DNA from: Odiellus spinosus
Taxonomy: Eukaryota > Arthropoda > Arachnida > Opiliones > Phalangiidae
Assembly (NCBI GenBank): GCA_963920705.1
Contig: CAWUCO010000218.1
Coordinates: 707,501 to 771,500, forward strand
Reading direction: 5' to 3'
Length of the DNA stretch: 64,000 bases
The translations under genes and the position numbers were made by a program. The stretch's first letter is position 1, and every line of letters starts with the position of its first letter. The notes under the pieces are model-generated. The model was not told the origin of the DNA, did no database searches, and was given only the letters and a program-made list of their open reading frames with translations. Positions 15,220 to 62,897 of the stretch are shown one piece after another.

Positions 15220-16003
15220 CTACAATATTACCCCAATTTGTCAAGTCCTGACATCCCTTGTCCAAATTTAATGTACCTTGTTTTCAAATAAACTAACCTT
15301 CAAAGAATTTTCTTTTATACCAAGTGGTTTCTCGCTTTAACATTTTTGGTAATCATCCCATTTAATAGAGTGATTTTCAGTAATTCAAATATGTCTTGAA
15401 ATACCGTTATTCATATCACCTTTAGCCACACAGGTTTTATGTTCCCGAATCCTGTCCAAAATATAACGTTTTGTTTCGCCAATATACGTTTTACCACATG
15501 ACTAGGGTATTTCATAAATAATGCCTCTAATGGCGGAATCCTCAATTTTTGGTTTTGTACGAGAAATTAATTTTTTTTAGAATATTAGTGGTTTTTATAT
15601 TAAACAAATTTGATAATTTTTCAAATTTCGTTTAAGATTCTCTGTGGTTTTAGGTACGTAAGGCAAAACTAAAACCTCCCCTTTCAGTTTACTTTTCATA
15701 TCATACTGATTAAGTTTATGTCAAATATTGTTTCGATAAGAGTTTTTGGATTATCTGATTCTAATAGCTGTTTTTTAATTTTTAATTTGTCCGAATTTGG
15801 GATATCAGACATGGATTGAATATGGTGTTTTAAACCTTTTACGACTGATGTTTTCACATGGTTTGGATGGTTCGAATTAAAAGTTTAAAAATGTTTTTGA
15901 ATGAGTTGATTTTTGATAAAGCGAAAAGGTTAGTTTACCATTAACATTTTTGATAATTAGGTCTAAAAATGGAATTCCATGGTTATCTTCAAGTTCAATA
16001 GTG
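15220..16003 (-). pseudogene. Penelope-like element remnant (RT C-terminus and GIY-YIG)
   Basis: Reading the - strand from 16003 gives the end of a Penelope-type reverse transcriptase (IELEDNHGIPFLDLIIKN, then a block with LTFSLYQKSTH and LNFNSNHPNH). After a linker with VLPYVPKTTENLKR comes a GIY-YIG endonuclease core at about 15530-15390 (GIIYEIP, then SCGKTYIGETKR, then ILDRIREHKTC). Several in-frame stops and shifts make it non-functional; one stop replaces the residue before SCGK. Penelope elements encode an RT fused to GIY-YIG, and this order matches. The remnant stops where the giant palindrome begins, and I do not find its missing 5' part on the far side of the palindrome. Confidence 0.85.
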
Positions 16004-16071
16004 AATAGTAGTAATAACATACACTTCGAGCTAACTCCCGCATTCCTCACCAGTGGCGCTGCGATCGCTTT

Positions 16072-16390
16072 TCGCTGAATCATAGCTTTGGCCAGGCATG
16101 AGCGGAAAAAATAGCTAGAAAGGTCTCTGACGGTTATCCATCACAGTTTGACAGGTAAATAGATCAACAGGTAAACCAATCAACAACAAAGGGAGAATAA
16201 AGTCTCTTCAAAGGGAGACTGAAACGTTTTTTCGCTGAATCATGGCTTTGGCCAGGCATGAGCGGAAAAATAGCTAGAAAGGTCTCTGACGCTCATCCAT
16301 CAAAGTTTAACAGGTCACTCGTCAAAATGACATTAATTCATCAAAGTTTGACAGGTAAACAAAGGGAGACTGAAACTCTAAAGTTAGGTA
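16072..16390. repeat. Subterminal duplicated block, left arm
   Basis: A block containing TGGCCAGGCATGAGCGGAAAA and TAGCTAGAAAGGTCTCTGACG occurs at about 16086-16152 and again at 16244-16291. The mirror image lies at about 33418-33630 in the right arm. Confidence 0.75.
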
Positions 16391-16592
16391 TTTCTCATTC
16401 CATGGTTATGGCGTGAAAAGACAATCAATTAAGCTAGACCAAGTGAAAGAACTACGAAAGTTAGAAAGATGTAAACAACAAAGGGAAACTGAAATCCATC
16501 ATCTAATGATCCTGATTTCTTAACCCTTTTTAAGATAGCCACTGAGGAGCTACAAAGGTCAGAAAGAGGTAAACAACAATTTTAAAACCCTA

Positions 16593-18050
16593 GTCTCCTG
16601 ATGAGAGAGCTACAAGAATCAGCCGGAGGTGTCAACAAAGGGAGAGTGTAAAGCCAGGCATTTCTAATTCCTTCGTCTGGGTAGGGAAGGATGATAAACA
16701 ATTTAACTAAACCTAGCGAGAGAATAGAGAACTACACAAGTCAGAAAGAGGTAAACAACAATTTTAAAACCCTAGTCTCCTGATGAGAGAGCTACAAGAA
16801 TCAGCCGGAGGTGTCAACAAAGGGAGAGTGTAAAGCCAGGCATTTCTAATTCCTTCGTCTGGGTAGGGAAGGATGATAAACAATTTAACTAAACCTAGCG
16901 AGAGAATAGAGAACTACACAAGTCAGAAAGAGGTAAACAACAATTTTAAAACCCTAGTCTCCTGATGAGAGAGCTACAAGAATCAGCCGGAGGTGTCAAC
17001 AAAGGGAGAGTGTAAAGCCAGGCATTTCTAATTCCTTAGTCTGGGTAGGGAAGGATGATAAACAATTTAACTAGACCTAGCGAGAGAATAGAGAACTACA
17101 CAAGTCAGAAAGAGGTAAACAACAATTTTAAAACCCTAGTCTCCTGATGAGAGAGCTACAAGAATCAGCCGGAGGTGTCAACAAAGGGAGAGTGTAAGCC
17201 AGGCATTTCTAATTCCTTAGTCTGGGTAGGGAATGATGATAAACAATTTAACTAGACCTAGCGAGAGAATAGAGAACTACACAAGTCAGAAAGAGGTAAA
17301 CAACAATTTTAAAACCCTAGTCTCCTGATGAGAGAGCTACAAGAATCAGCCGGAGGTGTCAACAAAGGGAGAGTGTAAAGCCAGGCATTTCTAATTCCTT
17401 AGTCTGGGTAGGGAAGGATGATAAACAATTTAACTAAACCTAGCGAGAGAATAGAGAACTACACAAGTCAGAAAGAGGTAAACAACAATTTTAAAACCCT
17501 AGTCTCCTGATGAGAGAGCTACAAGAATCAGCCGGAGTTGTCAACAAAGAGAGAGTGTAAAACCAGGCATTTCTAATTCTTTAATCTGGGTAGGGAAGGA
17601 TGATAAACAATTTAACTAAACCTAGCGAGAGAATAGAGAACTACACAAGTCAGAAAGAGGTAAACAACAATTTTAAAACCCTAGTCTCCTGATGAGAGAG
17701 CTACAAGAATCAGCCGGAGGTGTCAACAAAGGGAGAGTGTAAACCAGGCATTTCTAATTCCTTAGTCTGTGTAAGGAAGGATGATAAACAATTTAACTAG
17801 ACCTAGCGAGAGAATAGAGAACTACACAAGTCAGAAAGAGGTAAACAACAATTTTAAAACCCTAGTCTCCTGATGAGAGAGCTACAAGAATCAGCCGGAG
17901 GTGTCAACAAAGGGAGAGTGTAAACCAGGCATTTCTAATTCCTTAGTCTGGGTAGGGAAGGATGATAAACAATTTAACTAAACCTAGCGAGAGAATAGAG
18001 AACTACAAAAGTCAGAAAGAGGTAAAAAATTTCAAAACCCTAGTCTCCTT
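16593..18050. repeat. Tandem array, 182-bp period, 8 units (left arm)
   Basis: GTCTCCTGATGAGAGAGC recurs at 16593, 16775, 16957, 17139, 17320, 17502 and 17684, 17865, with a degenerate end at 18043; spacing is 181-182 bp except for the last. Units are almost identical, differing by scattered substitutions and 1-bp indels. No unit encodes an open frame. Confidence 0.95.
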
Positions 18051-18185
18051 ACGGGATCATAGCTTGAATCAAGCATTGGTAGGAAAATTGATAGACTGAA
18101 AAAGGAGCAAAAATAAACATTAGTATTTTCAATAAAGTCAGACCTAGCGTGAAATGAAAGAAATACAAAAGTCAGAATAGCTTAA

Positions 18186-18617
18186 CAACAAAGTGAGGCT
18201 GAAATCATTCTATTTTATTCCTCTTAAAACTTGATAAATCTGTCTATGCTTGTTAAAACAAACCCTAGCCATAGTAATGCTAGAGACTGTAAACAACAAA
18301 GTGAGGTTGAAATCATTCTATTTTATTCCTCCTAAAACCCGATAAATCTGTCTATGCTTGTTAAAACAAACCCTAGCCATAGTAATGCTAGAGACTTTAA
18401 ACAACAAAGTGAGATTGAAATCATTCTATTTTATTCCTCTTAAAACCTGATAAATCTGTTTATGCTTGTTAAAACAAACCTTAACCATAGTAATGCTAGA
18501 GACTGTAAACAACAAAGTGAGGCTGAAATCAATCTATTTTATTCCTCCTAAAACCTGATAAATCTGTCTATGATTGTTAAAACGAATCTTAGTCATAGTT
18601 ATGGTAGAGATTGTGAA
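18186..18617. repeat. Tandem array, 108-bp period, 4 units (left arm)
   Basis: CAACAAAGTGAG starts at 18186, 18294, 18402 and 18510. Each unit carries ATTCTATTTTATTCCTC and, near its end, a variant of CATAGTAATGCTAGAGACT. The last unit decays after about 18600. Confidence 0.95.
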
Positions 18618-18824
18618 ATACCTGATAAATAATAAGGTTAATCAACAAAGGTAGACTGTAACCAATTGAATTTTAAAAGAACAATAATGGTAAAAACTTA
18701 TGAAATTCAACATTAGGTAAACATCAAAGGGAGGTTATAATTAATCTTACGTTTTAAAAAAAGGCAATCATATCTTAATACTGATGAAAACTTTGAGAGC
18801 TAAACTCAATAACATCAATAACAT

Positions 18825-19640
18825 TGGGATATCAAACCAAGCGTTATGCACCTAGCGGAGGTATCTTGAAACACACAAACTGAGGAACAACGTTGATTAC
18901 CATATAATACGTATATTGAAAATTTAACAATAGCATTGGTAATATGAAACAAAGCGTTATGCAGCTGGCGGAAATATCTTGAAAACAGACCAAATCGAGA
19001 AGTTTTTTCATTTTCTGAGAAGTAAAAATCAAAGGAAAACAACATTTTTAACATATGTGAGATACATTGAACATTACAATAACAACTTTGGATATATCAA
19101 ATAACGAGTTTTTTACCTACCGGTAATATCTTGTAAACAACGGAGAAAAGTTTATTTTTGAGAGGTAAATCAAAGTATACAACGGTGATAACCATATGAA
19201 ACATATATACAACAATACATTTATTACATTGGATATATTAAACCAAACGTTTTTTCACCTACCGTTGATTTCTTGAAACTTGCAAACTGATAAAGTTTTG
19301 TAGTTTTTTAACTAAATCAAAGTAAGCAATGTTTTATTTCTATATGTAAGATACACTGACCATTACATCATAGACATTAGATATATCAAATAAAGCGTTT
19401 TATCACATAGCGGTTATTACTTGAAACCAACAAACGGATAAAATGTTTTAATTTGAGGGGTAAAACTACAATGATTATCACATGAGTACTTGAAACCAAC
19501 AAACGGATAAAATGTTTTAATTTGAGGGGTAAAACTACAATGATTATCACATGAATACTTGAAACCATAAAACGGATAAAGTGTTTTAATTTGAAGGTAA
19601 AACAAATTACAGTGTTTATTACATGAAACATATATAGATC
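18825..19640. repeat. Degenerate satellite, about 115-150 bp period, with a 69-bp sub-array
   Basis: Recurrent landmarks are ATCAAACCAAGCGTTATGCACC and TAGCGG...ATATCTTGAAAC, at about 18833, 18947, 19096, 19239 and 19389. Within it a 69-bp unit beginning ACTTGAAACCAACAAACGG is repeated at 19419, 19488 and 19557; the right arm has one unit fewer. Short frames at 19386-19670 are created by this repetition. Confidence 0.8.
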
Positions 19641-19645
19641 AATAC

Positions 19646-20690
19646 AAACTTTATGGAAAAAGGAAGTCAAAAGTCCTATTATTCCAAAAGAGTATACAGA
19701 TCAACAGTATTACATAAATAATCTATTAGCATAATCTCATAGAGTTAAAGTTTCAAAAATATTTACGTGTAGAAACGGAGGGTTGTTACGTGGTACTAGA
19801 AGACATCGAATGCCGACTTAAGCTAATCCCAACGCCCTCAGAAATACCCAGACTTTATGGAAAAAGGAAGTCAAAGAGTCCTATTATTCCAAAAGAGTAT
19901 ACAGATCAAAAAATTACATAAATAATCTATTAACATAATCTCATAGAGTTAAAGTTTCAAAAAATATTTACGCGTAGAAGCGGAGGGTTTGTAACGTGGT
20001 ACTAGAAGACAGCGAATACCGACTTCAGCTAATCCCAACGCCCTCAGAAATACCCAGACTTTATGGAAAAAGGAAGTCAAAAAGTCCTATTATTCCAAAA
20101 GAGTATACAGATCAAAAAATTACATAAATAATCTATTAGCATAATCTCATAGAGATAAAGTTTCAAAAATATTTACGTGTAGAAGCGGAGGGTTTGTAGC
20201 GTGGTACTAGAAGACAGCGAATACCGACTTCAGCTAATCCCAACGCCCTCAGAAATACCCAGACTTTATGGAAAAAGGAAGTCAAAAGTCCTATTATTCC
20301 AAAAGAGTATACAGATCAACAGTATTACATAAATAATTTATTAACATAATCTCATAGAGTTAAAGTTTCAAAACATATTTACGTGTAGAAGACATCGAAT
20401 GCCGGCTTCAGCTATTTCCAATACTACTAACGCCCTCAGAAATACCCAGACTTTATGGAAAAAGGAAGTCAGAAAAAGTCATATTATTCCAAAAGAGTAT
20501 TGAGGGAGTTATATCAAGTACTGAAACATTCTTCTTAATAGTCGTGTTTAAAGATCTATAGATCGACGATATGTTGTAAATAGCCTATTAGTATAATCTC
20601 CTAGAGTTAAAGTTTCAAAAATATTTACGTGTAGAAGCGTTGGGTTTGTAGCGTGGTACTAGAAGACATCGAATACGAACTTCTATGATC
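19646..20690. repeat. Tandem array, about 205-bp period, 5 units (left arm)
   Basis: The word ACTTTATGGAAAAAGGAAGTC starts near 19648, 19852, 20058, 20263 and 20450. Each unit continues with TATTATTCCAAAAGAGTAT, ATTTACGTGTAGAAG and GGTACTAGAAGACA. The last unit carries an extra segment around 20505-20575. Confidence 0.9.
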
Positions 20691-23276
20691 AAACGACATA
20701 GAATTTGTGTTGCTTTCCAATGGAGAAGGATGGTGGTTTTATACTAAACTTCTCTATGCCCTTGAATAAAAATATTTCGTTACGCTTATATATTACGAAG
20801 AAATAACCCTTTGATAATTTAAAAAACTCTCCAGGCAGTAAAAAAATTCCAAGGCTAAAATCATTAATTATAAAAAGGCGAGCGTACTTTAACGAGTGAG
20901 AAAATTATGAATCAACTTCGTGGGACGATAAAAAAACTCCCCAAGGTTAGCCAAACGGCTGTGGGATAATTAATCATTTTAGAAATAACAGAACCCTAGT
21001 GTGTTTAAGGTTTTAAAAACGTGGGTAGATAGAATAGTAAGACGAAAAATATATTTATTATAATAAGATCATTGAGGGTTATCAAACCAAGAGTTATGTA
21101 TCAAGCGGTGATATTTTAAAACAGGTAAACCGAAAGAGGTTTATTAGTTTCTTGTACCTCTCAAATCCGAGTAAACAAAGTTGATTTCAATATGAAATAT
21201 ACATTGAACAATACAATAGGATTGGGATATGAAACCAAGCGTTAATCAACTAGCGGTGATATTTTTGAAACAAGTAAATCGAGAAAGTTTTATTTTCAGA
21301 GGTAAATTAAGCCAAATTGATTATCATATGAGACGTACATTGAACAACACAATATTACCACAGGAGATATCTAACAAGCGTTATCCATCTAACAAATAAA
21401 CTTGAGAAAATTTGTATTTTTTAGAGTATAATCAAACTAGACAATGTTGATATATGAGTAAAATATTCAAAAATACATCAAGAACATTGGAAATATAAAA
21501 GTAAAGTTATACGTCTAGTGGTGACATCTTGAAACCGATAAACCAAAATCGATTTGTAGTTTTGAGAAGGAAAAATCAAAGTAAAAAACTACGCTAACTT
21601 TCATATGAGATGTACAATGAATATTACAATAATAACATTGGAGGTATCAAACCAATCGTTAATCACCTAGCGGTTATATCTTGAAACAGACAAACAGAGA
21701 ATTTTTTATAGTATGTGGACAATATTATTATCGAAGAAAGAGAGAAATGAGTAAACTTTCTTCTCAGATTAAAATATTAACCCTGATATAGGCATGAAGA
21801 ATAAATAGTCTATTATAGGAAAACCAATTATAAGAATAATTGATTGTTTAATCATTCGACCTACGGGGAACCTAACACGTGATCTATGGTGTATTGTAAA
21901 GGGGTAATGACGTCATTGTATTAATATTTACTATTTTATTTTAATTACATAGTTCCAATAAGAAAATTGTATACCCCTGCGAAACTTAGGGTAGGCTTTC
22001 CTGTAAGGCTTTGGTGTAATACAGGTAAGCCCCCTATACAGGGGTAGACCCTATCACGTGACCAAATCTCAAAGCTGTACGACTTGTAGTTTGGGAGTTA
22101 AAGCATTATCAAAGTTACATCCTATGTTATTCATATGGACAACTATGTTATTCCTTTGGGTACTATTTTCAAGCTGTAAAATATTTCAAATTCGTATTCG
22201 GGTGTGTACTATAGTGTATGTTGATCAACATGTATGAATAGTTTTTAGCTATGTATATGAATACTGAGAAGGCATGGATATATTACGATATGTTTGTGTA
22301 CCTGTGTGTTTTATTGAGTTTGTATTAGAAAATATGTATTATATTGAATTCAACAGCTCTTATTCAATAGCTCTAAAATATACAAGAACTTTCATCAATG
22401 ATCAAGAATTAGGAGATCAAGAGGTTGTTTAACGTCAACTTAAAGTGATTGTTTATACTCAACAAAAATATTTAATTGTAAGTTAGAAGAGAAAATTACT
22501 GTTTTCCTTTTTAAAAATATCATTTTATTTTACAGTTCTATATTTATGAAACAGTACAATCTTTACGGAAAAGTTAACTTTTAATTCTTTTAATGTTCAA
22601 ATCAATACTATTTCAAATAATAGATTTACTTAAACATTTTCACCTTCATGGATATTATAATCCTCCTAATTTACAAATGTTTTTGTTTAATATATGGTAA
22701 CATATCTTTAACGTAATTTTATCATATTTATACATAACTCGAGTAAACCTTTTTCAATTATACATATAAATGTTTTAAATATTATGTAAATGAAATATTT
22801 TTTAAAATTAAATTAATCGAGTTGCAATACATGGAAAATAAAATTCAACAAATTTCTTATACAGAAGTAAAGGTAATTTGATACTTGCTTGTTTTTGTCA
22901 AAACATCTCTAATTGGAACATTCAGCTAGTCTTGAAATCTGTCAGTTTTATATATAACTCAACATAACAACCCAAAATACTCTCTAATAATTTTTTCATT
23001 AATTGTAATAATTAATTTTAATATAGTTTACAATATTTACTTTAATGAGAATTACGGTTAGATACGTTTAGTATCTAATGAAATAATCCAGAATAATCTC
23101 AAATAACTTTTCATTGATTGTTATAATTTATTTTATTATAATATTTTGAGTTTAATAAGGTAATGCGTCAAATTATCAATGGATAATTCGTTATTTTCAT
23201 TGTAGCATTACGAATAGATCTCACTTTTTTAATAAAAATTTTAAAATATAAAATTTGAATGATTTGAATAATAATA
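20691..23276. repeat. Left-arm interior: degenerate satellite and non-coding flank of the gene
   Basis: Positions 21060-21720 hold five or so diverged units of the same satellite seen at 18825-19640. From 21840 to 23276 the DNA is AT-rich and non-repetitive within the arm, with a CRE-like palindrome TGACGTCA at about 21908. No additional gene of useful length is visible between the arrays and the 435-codon gene. The right arm mirrors it at about 27279-29860. Confidence 0.7.
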
Positions 23277-23282
23277 TTTATT
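23277..23282 (-). promoter_or_regulatory. Polyadenylation signal AATAAA
   Basis: AATAAA on the - strand begins just after the stop codon of the left-arm gene. The mirror copy is 27273-27278. The third gene copy at 44342 lacks it at the same place. Confidence 0.4.
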
Positions 23283-23283
23283 T

Positions 23284-24591
23284 CTAATCGTCTTTAAAAC
23301 GTTTAAAATGCAAAGTGGTAATTGTTTTACCAAGCTTGAATGGTATATTACTACCAGCATCAGTTGTAATATCTATATCGACAACATCAAACGAAGTTGT
23401 TTTAAGGGGATAATAATTAATAGGATTAAACATTAAATCATGCGTAATATTATTCTTATTATCAGGTCTAGGGATCCTTCGTAATAAGTCTCCCCATTTA
23501 TCACCTATAATCTGTCTTTTTATGAGACTAGTATTTACGAACAAATTCTGTATACCTCTGTTTATATCAGCCATATATTTTCCACATGTATTATGCGTAA
23601 ATTCTTTATCAATTTGTGTATTATCAAAACCTAACATGAGACCTAATCCAGGATTGTTTTTAGGAAAAATAATGCTAAAATTATCTCGCAAAAAATTTTG
23701 TTGATCCGATATATGATAATCTGGTTTTGTTTCGTCAATTATCCCTAATCCACAAAGCAACGTTACGATTCCATTACTATTTTGTTGAAAATCAAAATAT
23801 TGTCTCGTTCTTGGTGAAAAACACTCTTTCATTCCATTTAAAACACTCGAGATATTTTCGTACATTCCATGTGGAAGTTGATAAGTTTTAGTTTGATACA
23901 AAAGATTATCGATACACTCGTGCCCCATTAACGTGAGAGGTTTATCCCTTTTCACCATTTGACGAAGATAAAACGGAGGAAATTCACAGGTGTCGAGTCT
24001 ACGTATGGTCGGGTCTAAAGGCCGTACGCCAACGATAGTTTTACTCGTTAACCATTTATCATAAACACTAGAATCTAAACCTAATAAATCGCAATAAACT
24101 TTAGGAAATTTAACAAAAGTTTCTCCATTGGGTTCTTTAAATTTAACAACAAAACGTTCTTGTTCCTTTACGATATCAATTTGAAATTCTATCGCGTCTT
24201 TCACTTTCTCGTTGTTTATGGATGTATGCATTTGTTTGATAACTTTATGATAAAGACTTTTACCACTATTACCTTTCACAATAACAGTTTTAGCGTTTAA
24301 GGTCCCTTCATATATCTCATACTTAAAATCTAAATCAACCATTTTAACAATGAAGGTATCGCAAGAATTGCTTATATTATCCCATTTTGAAGGCATACTT
24401 ATATCCGATAATCCGACTCCCCATTGTCCATGTCTTAAATCAATTGATACGGGTAATTGATTAAAATAACTAGTACTCGTGTTTTTAGGGTATTTCTTCA
24501 TCGAAGACTCACTCGTAAGAGTTAAAAAGAAAGAATCGTGTTTAGGAACGAACGAATCCATGTTTCTAACGTTAATGAAATTTAATCTCAT
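23284..24591 (-). CDS. 435-aa element protein, left-arm copy (function unknown)
   Basis: An intact single-exon frame of 435 codons. The start at 24591 is the upstream Met; a second Met at residue 11 begins MDSF and could be the real start. Near the N-terminus is a pattern FFLTLTSESS, then MKKYP, LPVSIDL and WGVGLSDISMP (residues 21-67). The C-terminus has YYPLKT, FDVVDIDIT and GKTITTLHFKR (about 393-430). I see no signal peptide, membrane segment or catalytic motif. The two conserved ends remind me, from memory only, of uncharacterised proteins linked to virus-like elements of invertebrates (Polinton or adintovirus type, perhaps capsid-related), but this is a weak inference. It is the only gene of the arm. 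The right-arm protein differs at T97I and S183G only. Confidence 0.85.
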   Translation of the reverse strand: MRLNFINVRNMDSFVPKHDSFFLTLTSESSMKKYPKNTSTSYFNQLPVSIDLRHGQWGVGLSDISMPSKWDNISNSCDTFIVKMVDLDFKYEIYEGTLNAKTVIVKGNSGKSLYHKVIKQMHTSINNEKVKDAIEFQIDIVKEQERFVVKFKEPNGETFVKFPKVYCDLLGLDSSVYDKWLTSKTIVGVRPLDPTIRRLDTCEFPPFYLRQMVKRDKPLTLMGHECIDNLLYQTKTYQLPHGMYENISSVLNGMKECFSPRTRQYFDFQQNSNGIVTLLCGLGIIDETKPDYHISDQQNFLRDNFSIIFPKNNPGLGLMLGFDNTQIDKEFTHNTCGKYMADINRGIQNLFVNTSLIKRQIIGDKWGDLLRRIPRPDNKNNITHDLMFNPINYYPLKTTSFDVVDIDITTDAGSNIPFKLGKTITTLHFKRFKDD

Positions 24592-25963
24592 ATTACAATC
24601 ATATTAATACATCAATGAATTTAAAAAATATCATAACGAATGACAATATGGTTTGAGGGTTTCATTTAATTAAATATGGTACCAAATAGAAAAGTAACTT
24701 ACATTTTTTATTTATATTAAGTATCTTTAAAACAAGTTTACACTTTTTTCAATTGTATAAGAATTTTTAATCTTTAATTTAATTACAAACGAATTCTAAA
24801 TCGAGATAAAATGTCAATAATTATGTGGGTTATAAAGAATTTCATTTCTTTACAATAATTACCATTAGAAAAGAAAGCTATTCCTTACTGAGGAACCTTA
24901 AATTATTGAAAAAATCTGATATATAAAGTAATAAAGTATAAAAAATGTAGGAAAATAAATGGAAGCCTAGACTAAAAGAAATTTATTATTAAGAGTATTT
25001 TATTGTTTATATCCTCTAAATTAGAATTTTACGATCCACCTACCGCTACAGACGGATGTTTTTAATCAGTAAATTTAAAAATGTTTTTATTACGAACAAA
25101 CTCTTCTGCCAGATAAATTTTCAATAATCAAGGAGTTATAGAATATTCTTTGCGAGATTATTATTTCTATTGCAAAGTGAACAAAAAAGCAGGACCTATT
25201 TCTCAGAAATTAGATAATACTTTAGTTCAACTGATACTATCCCTTTAAAACCTTGACGTCTAGATCGAGAATCTTCATGAGCATTCTCGATCTAGACGTC
25301 AAGGTTTTAAAGGGATAGTATCAGTTGAACTAAAGTATTATCTAATTTCTGAGAAATAGGTCCTGCTTTTTTGTTCACTTTGCAATAGAAATAATAATCT
25401 CGCAAAGAATATTCTATAACTCCTTGATTATTGAAAATTTATCTGGCAGAAGAGTTTGTTCGTAATAAAAACATTTTTAAATTTACTGATTAAAAACATC
25501 CGTCTGTAGCGGTAGGTGGATCGTAAAATTCTAATTTAGAGGATATAAACAATAAAATACTCTTAATAATAAATTTCTTTTAGTCTAGGCTTCCATTTAT
25601 TTTCCTACATTTTTTATACTTTATTACTTTATATATCAGATTTTTTCAATAATTTAAGGTTCCTCAGTAAGGAATAGCTTTCTTTTCTAATGGTAATTAT
25701 TGTAAAGAAATGAAATTCTTTATAACCCACATAATTATTGACATTTTATCTCGATTTAGAATTCGTTTGTAATTAAATTAAAGATTAAAAATTCTTATAC
25801 AATTGAAAAAAGTGTAAACTTGTTTTAAAGATACTTAATATAAATAAAAAATGTAAGTTACTTTTCTATTTGGTACCATATTTAATTAAATGAAACCCTC
25901 AAACCATATTGTCATTCGTTATGATATTTTTTAAATTCATTGATGTATTAATATGATTGTAAT
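24592..25963. other. Shared divergent upstream region of the two palindrome genes
   Basis: The 1372 bp between the two start codons are a palindrome, so both genes have the same upstream sequence. They must share any promoter signals, and a site on one side is present on the other. The third copy retains only the first 58 bp or so upstream of its start before the homology breaks (24649 here, 45707 there). No TATA box could be assigned with confidence. Confidence 0.6.
25265..25290. other. Symmetry centre of the palindrome
   Basis: The left arm runs to TCGAGAAT and the right arm resumes with ATTCTCGA. The axis is between 25277 and 25278, inside TCATGA. The only mismatched pairs are 25273/25282 and 25274/25281. 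There is effectively no loop, so the whole structure can extrude as one cruciform. Confidence 0.9.
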
Positions 25964-27271
25964 ATGAGATTAAATTTCATTAACGTTAGAAACATGGATT
26001 CGTTCGTTCCTAAACACGATTCTTTCTTTTTAACTCTTACGAGTGAGTCTTCGATGAAGAAATACCCTAAAAACACGAGTACTAGTTATTTTAATCAATT
26101 ACCCGTATCAATTGATTTAAGACATGGACAATGGGGAGTCGGATTATCGGATATAAGTATGCCTTCAAAATGGGATAATATAAGCAATTCTTGCGATACC
26201 TTCATTGTTAAAATGGTTGATTTAGATTTTAAGTATGAGATATATGAAGGGATCTTAAACGCTAAAACTGTTATTGTGAAAGGTAATAGTGGTAAAAGTC
26301 TTTATCATAAAGTTATCAAACAAATGCATACATCCATAAACAACGAGAAAGTGAAAGACGCGATAGAATTTCAAATTGATATCGTAAAGGAACAAGAACG
26401 TTTTGTTGTTAAATTTAAAGAACCCAATGGAGAAACTTTTGTTAAATTTCCTAAAGTTTATTGCGATTTATTAGGTTTAGATTCTAGTGTTTATGATAAA
26501 TGGTTAACGGGTAAAACTATCGTTGGCGTACGGCCTTTAGACCCGACCATACGTAGACTCGACACCTGTGAATTTCCTCCGTTTTATCTTCGTCAAATGG
26601 TGAAAAGGGATAAACCTCTCACGTTAATGGGGCACGAGTGTATCGATAATCTTTTGTATCAAACTAAAACTTATCAACTTCCACATGGAATGTACGAAAA
26701 TATCTCGAGTGTTTTAAATGGAATGAAAGAGTGTTTTTCACCAAGAACGAGACAATATTTTGATTTTCAACAAAATAGTAATGGAATCGTAACGTTGCTT
26801 TGTGGATTAGGGATAATTGACGAAACAAAACCAGATTATCATATATCGGATCAACAAAATTTTTTGCGAGATAATTTTAGCATTATTTTTCCTAAAAACA
26901 ATCCTGGATTAGGTCTCATGTTAGGTTTTGATAATACACAAATTGATAAAGAATTTACGCATAATACATGTGGAAAATATATGGCTGATATAAACAGAGG
27001 TATACAGAATTTGTTCGTAAATACTAGTCTCATAAAAAGACAGATTATAGGTGATAAATGGGGAGACTTATTACGAAGGATCCCTAGACCTGATAATAAG
27101 AATAATATTACGCATGATTTAATGTTTAATCCTATTAATTATTATCCCCTTAAAACAACTTCGTTTGATGTTGTCGATATAGATATTACAACTGATGCTG
27201 GTAGTAATATACCATTCAAGCTTGGTAAAACAATTACCACTTTGCATTTTAAACGTTTTAAAGACGATTAG
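25964..27271 (+). CDS. 435-aa element protein, right-arm copy (function unknown)
   Basis: The mirror image of the left-arm gene, also intact over 435 codons, diverging from the shared centre. It has I at residue 97 and G at residue 183 where the left copy has T and S; I noticed no other protein difference. Such near identity means the arms arose recently, are homogenised by gene conversion, or are an assembly duplicate. An AATAAA follows the stop codon by one base. The N-terminal FFLTLTSESS and C-terminal GKTITTLHFKR segments are unchanged. No partner genes lie nearby, so the protein's role in the element cannot be read from context. Confidence 0.85.
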   Translation: MRLNFINVRNMDSFVPKHDSFFLTLTSESSMKKYPKNTSTSYFNQLPVSIDLRHGQWGVGLSDISMPSKWDNISNSCDTFIVKMVDLDFKYEIYEGILNAKTVIVKGNSGKSLYHKVIKQMHTSINNEKVKDAIEFQIDIVKEQERFVVKFKEPNGETFVKFPKVYCDLLGLDSSVYDKWLTGKTIVGVRPLDPTIRRLDTCEFPPFYLRQMVKRDKPLTLMGHECIDNLLYQTKTYQLPHGMYENISSVLNGMKECFSPRTRQYFDFQQNSNGIVTLLCGLGIIDETKPDYHISDQQNFLRDNFSIIFPKNNPGLGLMLGFDNTQIDKEFTHNTCGKYMADINRGIQNLFVNTSLIKRQIIGDKWGDLLRRIPRPDNKNNITHDLMFNPINYYPLKTTSFDVVDIDITTDAGSNIPFKLGKTITTLHFKRFKDD

Positions 27272-27272
27272 A

Positions 27273-27278
27273 AATAAA
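27273..27278 (+). promoter_or_regulatory. Polyadenylation signal AATAAA
   Basis: Lies one base after the TAG stop of the right-arm gene and mirrors 23277-23282. Confidence 0.4.
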
Positions 27279-30200
27279 TATTATTATTCAAATCATTCAA
27301 ATTTTATATTTTAAAATTTTTATTAAAAAAGTGAGATCTATTCGTAATGCTACAATGAAAATAACGAATTATCCATTGATAATTTGACGCATTACCTTAT
27401 TAAACTCAAAATATTATAATAAAATAAATTATAACAATCAATGAAAAGTTATTTGAGATTATTCTGGATTATTTCATTAGATACTAAACGTATCTAACCG
27501 TAATTCTCATTAAAGTAAATATTGTAAACTATATTAAAATTAATTATTACAATTAATGAAAAAATTATTAGAGAGTATTTTGGGTTGTTATGTTGAGTTA
27601 TATATAAAACTGACAGATTTCAAGACTAGCTGAATGTTCCAATTAGAGATGTTTTGACAAAAACAAGCAAGTATCAAATTACCTTTACTTCTGTATAAGA
27701 AATTTGTTGAATTTTATTTTCCATGTATTGCAACTCGATTAATTTAATTTTAAAAAATATTTCATTTACATAATATTTAAAACATTTATATGTATAATTG
27801 AAAAAGGTTTACTCGAGTTATGTATAAATATGATAAAATTACGTTAAAGATATGTTACCATATATTAAACAAAAACATTTGTAAATTAGGAGGATTATAA
27901 TATCCATGAAGGTGAAAATGTTTAAGTAAATCTATTATTTGAAATAGTATTGATTTGAACATTAAAAGAATTAAAAGTTAACTTTTCCGTAAAGATTGTA
28001 CTGTTTCATAAATATAGAACTGTAAAATAAAATGATATTTTTAAAAAGGAAAACAGTAATTTTCTCTTCTAACTTACAATTAAATATTTTTGTTGAGTAT
28101 AAACAATCACTTTAAGTTGACGTTAAACAACCTCTTGATCTCCTAATTCTTGATCATTGATGAAAGTTCTTGTATATTTTAGAGCTATTGAATAAGAGCT
28201 GTTGAATTCAATATAATACATATTTTCTAATACAAACTCAATAAAACACACAGGTACACAAACATATCGTAATATATCCATGCCTTCTCAGTATTCATAT
28301 ACATAGCTAAAAACTATTCATACATGTTGATCAACATACACTATAGTACACACCCGAATACGAATTTGAAATATTTTACAGCTTGAAAATAGTACCCAAA
28401 GGAATAACATAGTTGTCCATATGAATAACATAGGATGTAACTTTGATAATGCTTTAACTCCCAAACTACAAGTCGTACAGCTTTGAGATTTGGTCACGTG
28501 ATAGGGTCTACCCCTGTATAGGGGGCTTACCTGTATTACACCAAAGCCTTACAGGAAAGCCTACCCTAAGTTTCGCAGGGGTATACAATTTTCTTATTGG
28601 AACTATGTAATTAAAATAAAATAGTAAATATTAATACAATGACGTCATTACCCCTTTACAATACACCATAGATCACGTGTTAGGTTCCCCGTAGGTCGAA
28701 TGATTAAACAATCAATTATTCTTATAATTGGTTTTCCTATAATAGACTATTTATTCTTCATGCCTATATCAGGGTTAATATTTTAATCTGAGAAGAAAGT
28801 TTACTCATTTCTCTCTTTCTTCGATAATAATATTGTCCACATACTATAAAAAATTCTCTGTTTGTCTGTTTCAAGATATAACCGCTAGGTGATTAACGAT
28901 TGGTTTGATACCTCCAATGTTATTATTGTAATATTCATTGTACATCTCATATGAAAGTTAGCGTAGTTTTTTACTTTGATTTTTCCTTCTCAAAACTACA
29001 AATCGATTTTGGTTTATCGGTTTCAAGATGTCACCACTAGACGTATAACTTTACTTTTATATTTCCAATGTTCTTGATGTATTTTTGAATATTTTACTCA
29101 TATATCAACATTGTCTAGTTTGATTATACTCTAAAAAATACAAATTTTCTCAAGTTTATTTGTTAGATGGATAACGCTTGTTAGATATCTCCTGTGGTAA
29201 TATTGTGTTGTTCAATGTACGTCTCATATGATAATCAATTTGGCTTAATTTACCTCTGAAAATAAAACTTTCTCGATTTACTTGTTTCAAAAATATCACC
29301 GCTAGTTGATTAACGCTTGGTTTCATATCCCAATCCTATTGTATTGTTCAATGTATGTTTCATATAGAAATCAACTTTGTTTACTCGGATTTGAGAGGTA
29401 CAAGAAACTAATAAACCTCTTTCGGTTTACCTGTTTTAAAATATCACCGCTTGATACATAACTCTTGGTTTGATAACCCTCAATGATCTTATTATAATAA
29501 ATATATTTTTCGTCTTACTATTCTATCTACCCACGTTTTTAAAACCTTAAACACACTAGGGTTCTGTTATTTCTAAAATGATTAATTATCCCACAGCCGT
29601 TTGGCTAACCTTGGGGAGTTTTTTTATCGTCCCACGAAGTTGATTCATAATTTTCTCACTCGTTAAAGTACGCTCGCCTTTTTATAATTAATGATTTTAG
29701 CCTTGGAATTTTTTTACTGCCTGGAGAGTTTTTTAAATTATCAAAGGGTTATTTCTTCGTAATATATAAGCGTAACGAAATATTTTTATTCAAGGGCATA
29801 GAGAAGTTTAGTATAAAACCACCATCCTTCTCCATTGGAAAGCAACACAAATTCTATGTCGTTTGATCATAGAAGTTCGTATTCGATGTCTTCTAGTACC
29901 ACGCTACAAACCCAACGCTTCTACACGTAAATATTTTTGAAACTTTAACTCTAGGAGATTATACTAATAGGCTATTTACAGCATATCGTCGATCTATAGA
30001 TCTTTAAACACGACTATTAAGAAGAATGTTTCAGTACTTGATATAACTCCCTCAATACTCTTTTGGAATAATATGACTTTTTCTGACTTCATTTTTCCAT
30101 AAAGTCTGGGTATTTCTGAGGGCGTTAGTAGTATTGGAAATAGCTGAAGCCGGCATTCGATGTCTTCTACACGTAAATATGTTTTGAAACTTTAACTCTA

Positions 30201-31300
30201 TGAGATTATGTTAATAAATTATTTATGAAATACTGTTGATCTGTATACTCTTTTGGAATAATAGGACTTTTGACTTCCTTTTTCCATAAAGTCTGGGTAT
30301 TTCTGAGGGCGTTGGGATTAGCTGAAGTCGGTATTCGCTGTCTTCTAGTACCACGCTACAAACCCTCCGCTTCTACGCGTAAATATTTTTGAAACTTTAA
30401 CTCTATGAGATTATGTTAATAGATTATTTATGTAATTTTTTGATCTGTATACTCTTTTGGAATAATAGGACTTTTGACTTCCTTTTTCCATAAAGTTTGT
30501 ATCGATCTATATATGTTTCATGTAATAAACACTGTAATTTGTTTTACCTTCAAATTAAAACACTTTATCCGTTTTATGGTTTCAAGTATTCATGTGATAA
30601 TCATTGTAGTTTTACCCCTCAAATTAAAACATTTTATCCGTTTGTTGGTTTCAAGTAATCACCGCTATGTGATAAAACGCTTTATTTGATATATCTAATG
30701 TCTATGATGTAATGGTCAGTGTATCTTACATATAGAAATAAAACATTGCTTACTTTGATTTAGTTAAAAAACTACAAAACTTTATCAGTTTGCAAGTTTC
30801 AAGAAATCAACGGTAGGTGAAAAAACGTTTGGTTTAATATATCCAATGTAATAAATGTATTGTTGTATATATGTTTCATATGGTTATCACCGTTGTATAC
30901 TTTGATTTACCTCTCAAAAATAAACTTTTCTCAGTTTACTTGTTTACAAGATATTACCGGTAGGTAAAAAACTCGTTATTTGATATATCCAAAGTTGTTA
31001 TTGTAATGTTCAATGTATCTCACATATGTTAAAAATGTTGTTTTCCTTTGATTTTTACTTCTCAGAAAATGAAAAAACTTCTCGATTTGGTCTGTTTTCA
31101 AGATATTTCCACCAGCTGCATAACGCTTTGTTTCATATTACCAATGCTATTGTTAAATTTTCAATATACGTATTATATGGTAATCAACGTTGTTTCCTCA
31201 GTTTGTGTGTTTCAAGATACCTCCGCTAGGTGCATAACGCTTGGTTTGATATCCCAATGTTATTGATGTTATTGAGTTTAGCTCTCAAAGTTTTCATCAG
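27279..31300. repeat. Right-arm interior: gene flank, degenerate satellite and 205-bp array
   Basis: Reverse complement of the left arm. AT-rich flank runs to about 28840, degenerate satellite units lie at about 28845-29490, 205-bp units at about 29870-30500, then further satellite units to about 31300. The 205-bp array and the 69-bp sub-array have fewer units than on the left, which accounts for part of the length difference between arms. Confidence 0.8.
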
Positions 31301-31459
31301 TATTAAGATATGATTGCCTTTTTTAAAACGTAAGATTAATTATAACCTCCCTTTGATGTTTACCTAATGTTGAATTTCATAAGTTTTTACCATTATTGTT
31401 CTTTTAAAATTCAATTGGTTACAGTCTACCTTTGTTGATTAACCTTATTATTTATCAGG

Positions 31460-31905
31460 TATTTCACAATCTCTACCATAACTATGACTAAGATTCGTTT
31501 TAACAATCATAGACAGATTTATCAGGTTTTAGGAGGAATAAAATAGATTGATTTCAGCCTCACTTTGTTGTTTACAGTCTCTAGCATTACTATGGTTAAG
31601 GTTTGTTTTAACAAGCATAAACAGATTTATCAGGTTTTAAGAGGAATAAAATAGAATGATTTCAATCTCACTTTGTTGTTTAAAGTCTCTAGCATTACTA
31701 TGGCTAGGGTTTGTTTTAACAAGCATAGACAGATTTATCGGGTTTTAGGAGGAATAAAATAGAATGATTTCAACCTCACTTTGTTGTTTACAGTCTCTAG
31801 CATTACTATGGCTAGGGTTTGTTTTAACAAGCATAGACAGATTTATCAAGTTTTAAGAGGAATAAAATAGAATGATTTCAGCCTCACTTTGTTGTTAAGC
31901 TATTC
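31460..31905. repeat. Tandem array, 108-bp period, 4 units (right arm)
   Basis: Mirror of 18186-18617, with CTCACTTTGTTGTT marking each unit. The unit number is the same on both sides and the substitutions within units largely correspond. Confidence 0.9.
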
Positions 31906-32030
31906 TGACTTTTGTATTTCTTTCATTTAACGCTAGGTCTGACTTTATTGAAAATACTAATGTTTATTTTTGCTCCTTTTTCAGTCTATCAATTTTCCTA
32001 CCAATGCTTGATTCAAGCTATGATCCCGTA

Positions 32031-33160
32031 AGGAGACTAGGGTTTTGAAATTTTTTACCTCTTTCTGACTTTTGTAGTTCTCTATTCTCTCGCTAGGTTT
32101 AGTTAAATTGTTTATCATCCTTCCCTACCCAGACTAAGAAATGCCTGGTTTACACTCTCCCTTTGTTGACACCTCCGGCTGATTCTTGTAGCTCTCTCAT
32201 CAGGAGACTAGGGTTTTAAAATTGTTGTTTACCTCTTTCTGACTTGTGTAGTTCTCTATTCTCTCGCTAGGTCTAGTTAAATTGTTTATCATCCTTCCTT
32301 ACACAGACTAAGGAATTAGAAATGCCTGGTTTACACTCTCCCTTTGTTGACACCTCCGGCTGATTCTTGTAGCTCTCTCATCAGGAGACTAGGGTTTTAA
32401 AATTGTTGTTTACCTCTTTCTGACTTGTGTAGTTCTCTATTCTCTCGCTAGGTCTAGTTAAATTGTTTATCATCCTTCCTTACACAGACTAAGGAATTAG
32501 AAATGCCTGGTTTACACTCTCCCTTTGTTGACACCTCCGGCTGATTCTTGTAGCTCTCTCATCAGGAGACTAGGGTTTTAAAATTGTTGTTTACCTCTTT
32601 CTGACTTGTGTAGTTCTCTATTCTCTCGCTAGGTTTAGTTAAATTGTTTATCATCCTTCCCTACCCAGATTAAGGAATTAGAAATGCCTGGTTTTACACT
32701 CTCCCTTTGTTGACACCTCCGGCTGATTCTTGTAGCTCTCTCATCAGGAGACTAGGGTTTTAAAATTGTTGTTTACCTCTTTCTGACTTGTGTAGTTCTC
32801 TATTCTCTCGCTAGGTTTAGTTAAATTGTTTATCATCCTTCCCTACCCAGATTAAGGAATTAGAAATGCCTGGTTTTACACTCTCCCTTTGTTGACACCT
32901 CCGGCTGATTCTTGTAGCTCTCTCATCAGGAGACTAGGGTTTTAAAATTGTTGTTTACCTCTTTCTGACTTGTGTAGTTCTCTATTCTCTCGCTAGGTTT
33001 AGTTAAATTGTTTATCATCCTTCCCTACCCAGACTAAGGAATTAGAAATGCCTGGCTTTACACTCTCCCTTTGTTGACACCTCCGGCTGATTCTTGTAGC
33101 TCTCTCATCAGGAGACTAGGGTTTTAAAATTGTTGTTTACCTCTTTCTGACTTGTGTAGC
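32031..33160. repeat. Tandem array, 182-bp period, about 6 units (right arm)
   Basis: CAGGAGACTAGGGTTTT recurs at about 32201, 32382, 32563, 32745, 32927 and 33109, with a degenerate start at about 32031. The left arm has two units more, about 364 bp. The first right unit lacks a short stretch near 32137 found in the others. Confidence 0.9.
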
Positions 33161-33702
33161 TCCTCAGTGGCTATCTTAAAAAGGGTTAAGAAATCAGGAT
33201 CATTAGATGATGGATTTCAGTTTCCCTTTGTTGTTTACATCTTTCTAACTTTCGTAGTTCTTTCACTTGGTCTAGCTTAATTGATTGGCTTTTCACGCCA
33301 TAACCATGGAATGAGAAATACCTAACTTTAGAGTTTCAGTCTCCCTTTGTTTACCTGTCAAACTTTGATGAATTAATGTCATTTTGACGAGTGACCTGTT
33401 AAACTTTGATGGATGAGCGTCAGAGACCTTTCTAGCTATTTTTCCGCTCATGCCTGGCCAAAGCCATGATTCAGCGAAAAAACGTTTCAGTCTCCCTTTG
33501 AAGAGACTTTATTCTCCCTTTGTTGTTGATTGGTTTACCTGTTGATCTATTTACCTGTCAAACTGTGATGGATAACCGTCAGAGACCTTTCTAGCTATTT
33601 TTTCCGCTCATGCCTGGCCAAAGCTATGATTCAGCGAAAAGCGATCGCAGCGCCACTGGTGAGGAATGCGGGAGTTAGCTCGAAGTGGGGGTTATTACTA
33701 CT

Positions 33703-37275: not shown

Positions 37276-38836
37276 GGTTCTACTACCATTTTCGAAACAC
37301 CCTTTATATAGTTAAAGACTTCTCCATCTTCCGCGCCAATATGAGTATTCCTTGGTTGAAAGGTAAGCTTTAAGACAGTTCGACGGAATCTAGTGTTACC
37401 TACAGATAGAAAGTTAATTTATGAATTTTAATTAAACGGAAAAATGATTTTTTTACAGAGGGCTATCTAGAACCTTTTATTATGGAATTTAAATTAGGCA
37501 TAATTAAAGATTTTAAAAAAATCGAACGCTTTTATTTCGTAATGTTGCAATGTTAATTATCTATCCTAGTTAGATGTGTCTAGTTAAATTAATGGAAACC
37601 TTCCAAGTATTTCAAATACATTTAAACGGTTGCCGTTACGTTTGAAATACTCGGAAATTCCAGTTTTGGGTACTATGGGGTTTACTGGCCAGGAGCTCTA
37701 TATACTAAGCCTATCCCCAGCTTGCTATACCGTCCTCGTATCAATCAAGTTCTTCCCTCTCAATTTCTCAATTTAAAGAAAATCCAAAATATAAGTTTTG
37801 CCACAGTAAAAATGTTTTTGTTAAAGACTCGCTTGTATACTATACTGTATGTAAGTTTAGGGTGGGAAAAATAATCTCAACTGATACGAGTTTTACCAGG
37901 ACCCTCTGATGAGATTCAAATAGTAAGAAAAGTTTGAAAAAGAAATGCACGTGTGACCACGTGTAAAAAGAGAGAAAAAGGTAGGGCTTGGCCCTCTTGT
38001 GGATTGTGTTTGAAAAAGAGAAGTGAGGGTTCAGAAGAAGGAGAGCTTGGACGAAAGGTGAACGCGAAAGGTCGAAATGTTGAACGGACGACGAAAATAA
38101 AAAGGAAAGACCCCGCGAACGGAAAATCGGTTCGCGAAAAATAAAACTACGGCCGAATTGGTCCGAGATCGCTTTCGCGCTAAACCGGCTAATGTCGGGA
38201 TAACGAAACGAGTGAAACAAAAGAGACAACGGTTGTCCTAAAGGAAATGATTAAAATAGAAAATACGACGTTAATCTACGCTTGAGAACATCAGGCCGCC
38301 AGGGATGACTTGCCCGCACCTACTAAGAGCCTCGCCAACGCCAAAGGACCTGCTAAGTTCCACCTAAAGTATAACAATTTGAATAAGAGAGAAGCTACGG
38401 GCTAGAGAAAGAGTATTAATTGTCTGTTAGAATGGAGTAATATGATGTGTTATGTTTTACTGTATATAGTTATGTTAACCAATCATTAAGAGTGTGAATA
38501 TTATGATTTCAATTTTGTTTACATATTAAAAGTGGCAAACCTTATACCAAGGACTCATTGATATAAAATAATTTAAAATAACGCCTAGACAACGATGACC
38601 AACAAGTAATAAATTAAATATACCCCTAAACAAAGAGTCTTCACCTAACCTAGATGTAAAGGGAAGGTGACAAGGTTTAGCTTGGCTCATTTAGCTGATT
38701 AGATGAAATACCCTTTTTGTTAGTGATAGAAATTACAGGCGTTAAGCAAGGTTTAAGTCTTACGGATATGTAATTTCGCTGCAATGTAGCTGTAGTCAGA
38801 AAGTCAGACCCATACAATTTATCGTAGTAGTAATAT
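37276..38836. other. 1.56 kb without a recognised gene
   Basis: A hairpin lies at about 37598-37662 (CCAAGTATTTCAAATAC facing GTTTGAAATACTCGG). A purine-rich stretch at 37950-38150 opens frames of 63 and 129 codons on opposite strands; their composition is low-complexity and no motif is seen. Confidence 0.5.
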
Positions 38837-39329
38837 CATACAAGGGAGCTAACTCCCGCATTCCTCAACAGCGGCGCTGCGATCGCTTTTCGATGGATCA
38901 AATCAAGCATTGGTCGGAAAATTGTTAAAAAAGTGTCGTGATGTAATTCATCATCCCAACCCCACCCCCACCCTACACCCTACACCCTCAATAGTAATGC
39001 TAGAAACTGTAGACAACAAAGTGAGGTTGAAATCATTCTATTTTATTCCTCTTAAACCTGATAAATCTTTCTATGCTTGTTAAAACGAACCTTACTCGTA
39101 GCAATGTTAGAGACTGTGAAATACCTGATAAATAATAAGGTTAATCGGCAAAGGTAGACTGAAACCAATTGAATTTTAAAAGAACAATAATGGTAAAAAC
39201 TTACGAAATTCTAAAATCAACATTAGGTAAACATCAAAGGGAGGGTATAATTAATCTAACGTTTTAAAAAAAGGCAATCATATCTTAATACTTATGAAAA
39301 CTTTGAGAGCTAAACTCAATAACATTGGG

Positions 39330-40870
39330 ATAGCAAACAAGCGTTATAACCTAGCGATAATGTCATGAAACAGACAAACTGACAAAGATTTTTATTTTGA
39401 GACTTAGATCAAAGTATACAATGGTATTTAACATATGAGTGGTATACAAAACAATACCATTGGAGATATCAAACCACGAGTTTTTCACCTAGCGGTGATA
39501 ACTTCAAACAAGTAAACCGAAAATGTTTGGTTGTTTTTGAGAGGTAAATCTAAGCAAACTATTTGAGAGATATATTGTACAATACAGCAATAGCATCAGA
39601 GATATCAAACCAAGGGTTTTTACACATAGCGGTGATTACTTGAAACCTGTAAACTGAGAAACTTTTATGCTTTCTGAGTAAATCAAAGTAAACAATGGAA
39701 ATTAACATATGAGAGGTATAAACAATAATACAACAACTACATTGGAGATATCAAACCACGCTTTTTTTCACCTAACCGAGATATCTTGAAACAAAACAAA
39801 AACGAGAAGGTTTTATAGTTTTTTTATGAGGTAAATCAAAGTAAACAAGGTCTATTGCCATATGAGGGTATATTGAACAATACAACTGTAGCATTAGGGA
39901 AATAAAAAACAAGAGTTTTTCACCTGACGGAGATATCTTGAAACAAACAAAACGAGTAAGTTTTGTAGTATTTTGGGCAGTAAATCAAAGTAAACATTAT
40001 TTATTTGCATATGAGGGTAATATTGAACAATACAACTTTAACATTGGCGATATCAAACCAAGCGTTTTTCACCTAGCGGAGATATCCTGAAACAAACAAT
40101 ACGAGAAAATTTTGTAATTTTTATGGGAGGTAAATCAAAGTAAACAATGTCTATTACCATTTGAGAGGAATATTGAACAACACAACAATAACCCTAGGGT
40201 ATTAAACCAAGCGTTATGCAACCAGCGGTGGTATCTTGAAACACACAATCCGAGAAAACAACGTTTATTACCATATAATACGTATATTGAAATTTAACAA
40301 TATCATTGGTAATATGAAACAAAGCGTTATGCACCTAACGGAAATATCTTGAAAACACAAAATCGAGAAGTTTTTACCTACCGGTAATATCTTGAAAACA
40401 AGTAAAAGGAGAAAAGTTTATTTTGAGAGGTAAATCAAAGTAAACAACGGTGATAACCATATGAAGCATATATACAGCAATACATTGGATATATTAAACC
40501 AAACGTTTTTCACCTAGCGTTGATTACTTGAAACCGGCAAACTGATAAAGTTTTGTAGTTTTTTTTAACTAAATCAAAATAAGCAATGTTTATTTCCATA
40601 TGTAAGATACACTGAGCATTACATCATAGGAATTGGGTATATCAAACGAAGCGTTTTATCACATATCGGTGATTACTTGAAACCAACAAACGGCTAAAAT
40701 GTTTTAGTTTGAGGGGTAAAGAAAACTACAATGATTATCACATGAATACTTGAAACCAACAAACGGATAAAGTGTTTTAATTTGAGGACAAAGCAAATTA
40801 CAGTATATAGATCAATACAACTACAATAAAATTATGAAACACGAGTTCTTTCACCTAGTGATAATATAAT
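39330..40870. repeat. Degenerate satellite in the third copy, about 11 units
   Basis: Landmarks ATATCAAACCA...TTTTTCACCTAGCGG recur at about 39331, 39466, 39601, 39743, 39897, 40029, 40197, 40311, 40485, 40630 and 40838. The spacing varies from about 115 to 210 bp. Confidence 0.8.
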
Positions 40871-40904
40871 GAAAATATGAGGTATTTTCACAGTATTAAA
40901 TATA

Positions 40905-45649: not shown

Positions 45650-45707
45650 ATTTCAGTCTAATTAATACATCAATGAATTTAAAAAATAGCATAACGAACG
45701 ACAATAT

Positions 45708-50248: not shown

Positions 50249-50353
50249 GGTTCAAACCAGATATTACAATTTTTTTAATGTTTATAAAAACAGTTTTAAT
50301 TATTTTTCGCCAACCTGGCTGGCAAAAAATATTAAAGACGTCTTTAATTAGTG

Positions 50354-52071: not shown

Positions 52072-52072
<1 letters not shown>
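51376..52072. other. No gene recognised
   Basis: Short frames only (up to 76 codons), without motifs. The sequence lies between the DDE transposon and a LINE remnant. Confidence 0.45.
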
Positions 52073-52102
<30 letters not shown>

Positions 52103-56752: not shown

Positions 56753-56795
56753 CTAGAAATAAACTAAAACAAAAGGGTATAGTCCACAATGTAAA

Positions 56796-62895: not shown

Positions 62896-62897
62896 TT

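Follow-up and report, generated by a model that had tools for sequence, protein, structure and literature searches.

A near loop-free palindrome with Polinton-type ends in the genome of the harvestman Odiellus spinosus

Long inverted arms with tandem subrepeats are found in Foldback (FB) and Galileo transposons, which also have termini and a transposase specific to their family. The symmetric defective genomes of adenovirus 12 (Ad12 'SYREC'), a linear protein-primed replicon, have one end duplicated in inverted orientation. The phi29 polymerase is a protein-primed, strand-displacing enzyme. In multiple displacement amplification (MDA) with phi29 polymerase, 406 of 475 chimeras were inverted and more than 70% of junctions were primed by 2 to 21 complementary nucleotides, which was attributed to displaced 3' ends on displaced 5' strands and not to hairpins (PMC1855051). 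Vertebrate Polintons or Mavericks (polintoviruses, adintoviruses) most commonly end in 5'-(AGT)2//(ACT)2-3', have target duplications of 6 bp, and average 16,862 +/- 1,678 bp in length (PMC8097293). Maverick virus particles had not yet been observed at the time of that study, and the replication of Mavericks has for this reason been inferred. Here we describe a 17,696-bp palindrome at positions 16007-33702 of a 64,000-nucleotide stretch of the Odiellus spinosus genome (assembly GCA_963920705.1, contig CAWUCO010000218.1, positions 707,501 to 771,500), which we call the window. We propose, with moderate confidence, that the palindrome is a chromosomal insertion of a non-autonomous Polinton/Maverick-type element that was made symmetric by fold-back during linear, strand-displacing replication and then integrated. 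Its relatives elsewhere in the genome have different mirror points, which suggests that such elements repeatedly become palindromes while copying themselves. A literature search on palindromic or non-autonomous Polintons and symmetric adenovirus genomes gave, among the papers listed, no palindromic Polinton by title or by the start of the abstract, which is not proof of absence from print.

The palindrome consists of arms of 9,271 bp (left) and 8,425 bp (right), near-identical and joined without a loop, as an earlier sequence-only reading of the window had described (Table 1). BLAST of the window against itself gave an inverted match of 10,443 columns at 99.74% identity, centred between 25277 and 25278, and additional inverted blocks extend this match to 16007 and 33702. 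The axis reads GAGAAT-CTTCATGAGC-ATTCTC and leaves at most 10 nt unpaired, with two mismatched positions. From the axis outward, 2 of the 5 loop positions are mismatched, the 623 positions of the centre match throughout, and the gene module has 2 mismatches in 2,715 positions; the next 1,847 positions add another 8, which brings the total to 12 mismatches in the first 5,190 bp. With 5,178 of these 5,190 positions paired, chance pairing needs no test. A control in which the longest exact loop-free half-arm was 9 bp in the window and 8 bp in all three base shuffles is uninformative because the two loop mismatches break the exact match. Farther out, the arms differ mainly in the copy number of tandem arrays, with gaps of 182, 181, 69, and 411 bp. 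The same reading had reported an intact 435-codon open reading frame (ORF) and tandem arrays in each arm, and these are indeed present: the array units measure 182, 108, 69, and 205 bp, and the two ORFs point outward and differ at two codons. The outer terminus that it had placed at 16001 is identical on both arms but starts at 16007.

The ends of the element relate it to Polintons. In the whole window, AGTAGTAATA is found at just three places: the two ends of the palindrome, and position 38826, where a third copy, T, begins. Both ends of the palindrome carry the motif 5'-(AGT)2//(ACT)2-3', as do the ends of two palindromic relatives, C11 and C8a. Along with these ends, the window element resembles Polintons in its total length and, probably, in its PX-like gene. 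It differs from them in that its arms form inverted repeats of 8-9 kb, compared with terminal inverted repeats of 46-1,447 bp in vertebrate Mavericks (PMC8097293), and in that one gene is present twice.

Relatives were sought with the 435-codon gene in the 443 Mb and 286 contigs of the genome, with 40 of 210 candidates scored, so that the counts are lower bounds. There are at least 42 matches. Neighbouring gene copies less than 3 kb apart form at least 10 pairs, all divergent (at least nine leaving out a pair on contig C210 that repeats the window pair), and the reading frame is unbroken in 8 of the 18 full-length copies checked (5 of 15 leaving out three C210 copies). The C11 palindrome spans 16,274 bp (8286322-8302595), and its outer halves are inverted-homologous at 99.6%, with the homology stopping exactly at AGTAGT (8286322) and ACTACT (8302595). 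ATGAAA stands outside both ends as a perfect 6-bp target duplication; at 33% GC, a chance match between 6-bp flanks is calculated at ~0.05% per element. The 332 bp between the C11 gene modules are self-complementary throughout (98.2%), with at most 8 nt unpaired at the centre, and the module arms differ at one of 2,716 positions (0.04%). C8a (contig C8, 5.477 Mb; 5467450-5485005) spans 17,556 bp with the end motif on both sides, and the 848 bp between its modules are likewise self-complementary throughout (98.8%), with at most 10 nt unpaired at the centre. All three palindrome lengths lie less than one standard deviation from the vertebrate Maverick mean (PMC8097293). In C11 the axis lies between 8294449 and 8294450, 166 bp past the module edge, compared with 424 bp in C8a and 628 bp in the window, where the sequence is different; three palindromes with at most 8-10 nt unpaired thus have three different axes. 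The symmetry of the window element and of C11 stops at the termini and does not enter the flank; it would therefore predate integration. The end motif and perfect target duplication of C11 similarly argue that C11 was palindromic when it integrated.

These ends also bear on whether the element could be a Foldback-like DNA transposon whose very long inverted repeats include a gene by chance. The window element does have the long inverted arms with tandem subrepeats of Foldback and Galileo, but it differs from them in its Polinton-type ends and in the gene inside its arms, and a Foldback-like origin is further contradicted by the 6-bp duplication around C11 and by termini common to the sister elements and a full-type Polinton. 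We therefore regard it as highly improbable. A head-to-head dimer and a gene lying inside inverted repeats, both suggested by the sequence-only reading, each fit the element; a kinship with Foldback is not supported.

Two types of outer segment occur in the family. The W type, seen in the window, has a AGTAGTAATA end and tandem arrays, and the C type, seen in C11, has a AGTAGTTTATTCC end and is ~5 kb long, with a longest stop-to-stop ORF of 113 aa (in L032). The window element and C18x, in which one arm is cut back, are W-W forms, C11 and C8a are C-C forms, and T and C8b are mixed. C8b has a C-type end at 8819487, a W-type segment without a terminus opposite, and two inverted gene modules 3.41% apart around a centre of ~0.2 kb between ~1.0 kb and ~1.0 kb. 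C8c and C33 are asymmetric. C8d was rejected as an independent copy, its right flank being the inverse of the left flank of C8b.

The 435-aa protein is probably PX, the penton protein. It is 63% identical in amino acid sequence to the product of the corresponding gene in full-type Polintons of the same genome. In L028-L030 (contigs C112 and C1), the homologue, which is open in L028 and split by stops in L029 and L030, is followed by a small basic ORF and then by a longer major-capsid-like ORF, which we take to encode the major capsid protein and which gave no Pfam match. This arrangement, with the homologue one gene upstream of the capsid-like ORF, is as described for PX, whose gene either directly precedes the major capsid gene or, more commonly, is separated from it by one gene (PMC4028283). 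Searches of Pfam, PHROGs, and PDB sequences with the 435-aa protein gave weak or no matches, none above the Pfam cut-off and none in PDB, and scans of viral contigs with the window protein, the full-type PX-like protein, and the capsid-like ORF found no relative. The ratio of nonsynonymous to synonymous substitution rates (dN/dS) is ~0.24 between L028 and the window gene and ~0.5-0.7 among young copies, indicating that constraint among the young copies is weak. Between the left-arm copy and T there are 22 amino-acid changes where 26.4 are expected, with 22 or fewer in 4% of 1,000 simulation runs; no stop arose in 20% of the runs simulating this divergence. Rfam and tRNA scans were empty.

Pieces of C1 beside L030 contain an rve integrase match (2.2e-11, above the Pfam cut-off) as well as ATPase-like and protease-like matches below the cut-off. 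A full-type relative on C1 combines a PX-like gene with a terminus matching that of C11, and the first 300 bp of the C outer segment align with a full-type Polinton terminus. In L028-L030, (AGT)2-type termini lie 0.9-1.4 kb upstream of the gene, whereas in the palindromes the axis lies 0.2-0.7 kb upstream, so that it looks as if the PX-proximal end is missing from the palindromes and the far end is doubled. Separately, two full-type Polinton starts in the same orientation, C1:10196976 and C1:10210188, lie ~13.2 kb apart with identical 10 bp outside, an apparent tandem duplication.

In the fold-back route that we favour, the element would have replicated as linear DNA by terminally primed, strand-displacing synthesis, for which a full-type relative would have provided the Polinton-type polymerase. 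At a short hairpin upstream of the PX-like gene, a nascent strand would have turned back and served as its own template, yielding an inverted dimer whose two sides carry the same end for replication and integration. This dimer would then have been inserted by the integrase as one unit. The axis of C11 can be compared directly with unrearranged sequence. T and C8b read TTTCTTAAC(C/T)TTTGGCTTAGAAAATA, and C11 reads TTTCTTAACCTTTGGCTTA, then AGAAACGC, the complement of its own upstream sequence. C11 thus tracks the T/C8b sequence through ...CTTTGGCTTA and from there continues with the complement of the upstream sequence, in a snap-back of 3 nt that encloses 8 nt. This is the axis that would result if, at a short hairpin present in the unrearranged copies, a 3'-terminal TTA paired with TAA across 8 nt and was then extended. 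The phi29 chimeras are alike in that inverted joins are primed by a few complementary nucleotides during strand displacement, but they are an in-vitro by-product, whereas the window case would have arisen in vivo and been inherited; because hairpins are argued against for the chimeras (PMC1855051), they parallel the inverted joining and not the hairpin step. Ad12 'SYREC' shares with the window element the inverted duplication of one end, but the window element resides in a host chromosome and recurs as a family with several axes.

The relationships among copies bear on how recently the palindromes formed. In a tree of the 2.7-kb gene module, the two window arms (0.07% apart) are each other's closest relatives, as are those of C11 (0.04%), unlike those of C8a (1.81%) and C8b (3.41%). 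Repeated formation agrees with this pattern of young palindromes, each with its own axis, and gene conversion between arms would look alike. C18x (L049, L050, L006; C18 6.57-6.58 Mb), a W-W relative ~2% from the window copy, has no mirror gene copy: one arm is kept nearly to the window axis (25280) except for an insert of ~3.4 kb, and the other resumes at 28304. It is either a candidate case of palindrome revision, in which a central deletion would have removed part of one arm starting at the axis, or a possible parent of the window form. If C18x was shortened from a palindrome, the window arms were homogenised, and their module divergence of 0.07% understates the age of the axis. Portions of the window centre recur in C18x and in an older copy on C8.

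Several observations weigh against the fold-back route. The window copy has no 6-bp target duplication (GTGAAT and CGGGTC outside its ends), in which it differs from Polintons and for which reason we call it a Polinton-type derivative and not a typical member. Target duplications around other copies, which the sequence-only reading had proposed to look for, exist at C11 but not at C8a (CACAAC/CCCGTT) or T (TATCGT/AAAGGA), leaving one in four two-ended elements (window, C11, C8a, and T), or one in five with C17c. An inversion between the right arm and T was rejected as the cause of the missing duplication at the window copy, as it brought no flanks into match. The ends of C8a are unlike each other in their first 80 bp, and its arms are not sisters. 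The W outer segments of the window and the C outer segments of C11 show no similarity beyond the end motif. No unrearranged parent of the window axis was found, and the nearest relative leaves about 7 of the 10 window loop bases unaccounted for. The 3-nt stem of C11 is by itself weak evidence; what lends it strength is the known parental sequence to either side of the switch. The arms yielded no recognisable gene for a polymerase, integrase, ATPase, protease, or major capsid protein; a Pfam scan of the main ORF and 10 others (nine in the right arm and one across its end), covering 11 of the 37 stop-to-stop ORFs of at least 45 aa that overlap 25278-33800, gave no PolB, rve, ATPase, or protease family, and the 10 others matched no Pfam family at all. 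The PolB fragment on C1 (1.6e-5) scores 24.4 bits, just under the Pfam cut-off of 25.8, and a search of two C1 pieces revealed no right-hand terminus. Two structure predictions, with mean predicted local distance difference test (pLDDT) scores of 32.3 and 33.1, are unusable.

Some of these points would be explained by recombination between inverted modules. Mixed W-C elements may hold two gene modules in inverted orientation, and a crossover between two such elements, or between elements at separate loci, yields symmetric W-W and C-C products with unmatched flanks. Recombination is a live and serious rival because mixed W-C forms, T and C8b, exist. It would account for the lack of target duplications at the window copy and C8a, and the left arm of C8a is nearer to C11 than to the right arm of C8a. 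A crossover should, however, retain the parental centre, which in C8b measures ~1.0 + 0.2 + 1.0 kb, whereas no more than 10 nt remain unpaired in the window and no more than 8 nt in C11, their axes lie at unrelated positions, and the perfect target duplication of C11 is left unexplained. On balance we consider recombination rather unlikely as the source of the palindromes.

Breakage of an integrated copy followed by chromosomal fold-back synthesis would also yield a loop-free axis, and copies on C17 with inverted flanks may be cases of it. Such copying would pass the element end and duplicate the flank, but the window arms stop at the terminus and their flanks differ, which makes this origin improbable for the window element. 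The C17 copies were rejected as a trio of independent elements with long terminal inverted repeats: the inverted homology of C17c passes its termini into the flank, where GAGGCC/GGCCTC are inverted copies, and C17a has the same flank. In their own right, duplicated palindromes lie on C17 at 1.06, 4.497, and 4.520 Mb (L021-L025, L027, L035-L038, L041, L042). The symmetry of the 4.520-Mb copy passes the ends into the flank, with a second AGTAGT-type terminus ~500 bp outside the first, and the C17 palindrome core encodes a DDE_3 (mariner-like) protein.

An artefact of assembly or amplification, either a fold-back contig or an MDA chimera, has to be considered since palindromic reads are common after MDA (PMC13265396). 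Contig C210 starts inside the palindrome region and covers the axis, right arm, and right flank, but not the left flank. All of 6,001 bp along the right arm and into the right flank match the window, and the axis is crossed by two overlapping pieces (3,987 and 4,308 bp) with a single mismatch each. A DDE_Tnp_4 transposon (C210:1-2835, L053; 1.2e-41) that the window does not have sits in the left arm of C210, to the left of window position 22105. C210 therefore looks allelic to the window contig, and the transposon seems to be a polymorphic insertion in the palindrome. The axis shared by two haplotypes, the outer flanks that differ beyond 16007 and 33702, and the array indels between the arms make an assembly fold-back or MDA chimera unlikely, and with the target duplication around C11 also speaking against an artefact, we assign it only a very slight probability.

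A palindrome that carries Polinton ends and lies within a 6-bp target duplication would preserve in the chromosome the trace of a linear intermediate outside it and of the integration of that intermediate. A tentative extension is that these elements are helper-dependent satellite genomes of an animal polintovirus, in which short one-gene monomers become replicable, packageable, and integrable as inverted dimers that reach full-genome length and are bounded by the same end at either side. Becoming a palindrome could then be a recurrent, selected step of the life cycle and not an accident. Should symmetric copies keep arising, the host genome would offer a natural assay of replication mode, of integration or packaging length, and of satellite parasitism.

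Table 1 Features of the palindrome and of the third family member in the window.
Feature	Position	Strand	Basis or remark
Left arm: W-type outer segment, gene module, centre	16007..25277	+	self-BLAST, axis read, arm alignment
Right arm, inverted copy of left arm	25278..33702	-	self-BLAST, axis read, arm alignment
Axis, between 25277 and 25278, at most 10 nt unpaired	25268..25287	.	axis read
Left outer terminus AGTAGTAATAAC, (AGT)2-type	16007..16018	+	6 bp outside: GTGAAT
Right outer terminus, left-terminus sequence inverted	33691..33702	-	6 bp outside: CGGGTC
182-bp tandem array, 8.3 copies, left	16550..18049	+	
182-bp tandem array, 6.3 copies, right	32031..33159	-	
108-bp tandem array, left	18184..18614	+	mirror at 31466-31896
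Centre of window W-W form, 628 + 628 bp, itself palindromic	24650..25905	.	
435-codon ORF, left copy; probable Polinton PX (penton)	23284..24591	-	
435-codon ORF, right copy	25964..27271	+	
Third family member T, mixed: W-type end 38826, C-type end 62933	38826..62933	+	gene module on left side only
Intact 435-codon ORF of T	44342..45649	-	

T is enlarged by two insertions, a nested DDE_Tnp_4 transposon at 47361-51375 with 814-bp inverted ends (98.3%) and a reverse-transcriptase element at ~53404-58258. At the left edge of the window, positions 1-7371 contain degraded inverted repeats, 1-1125 with 5288-6382 (82%) and 4469-5064 with 6801-7371 (79%), which partly match an insert in C18x (L006).

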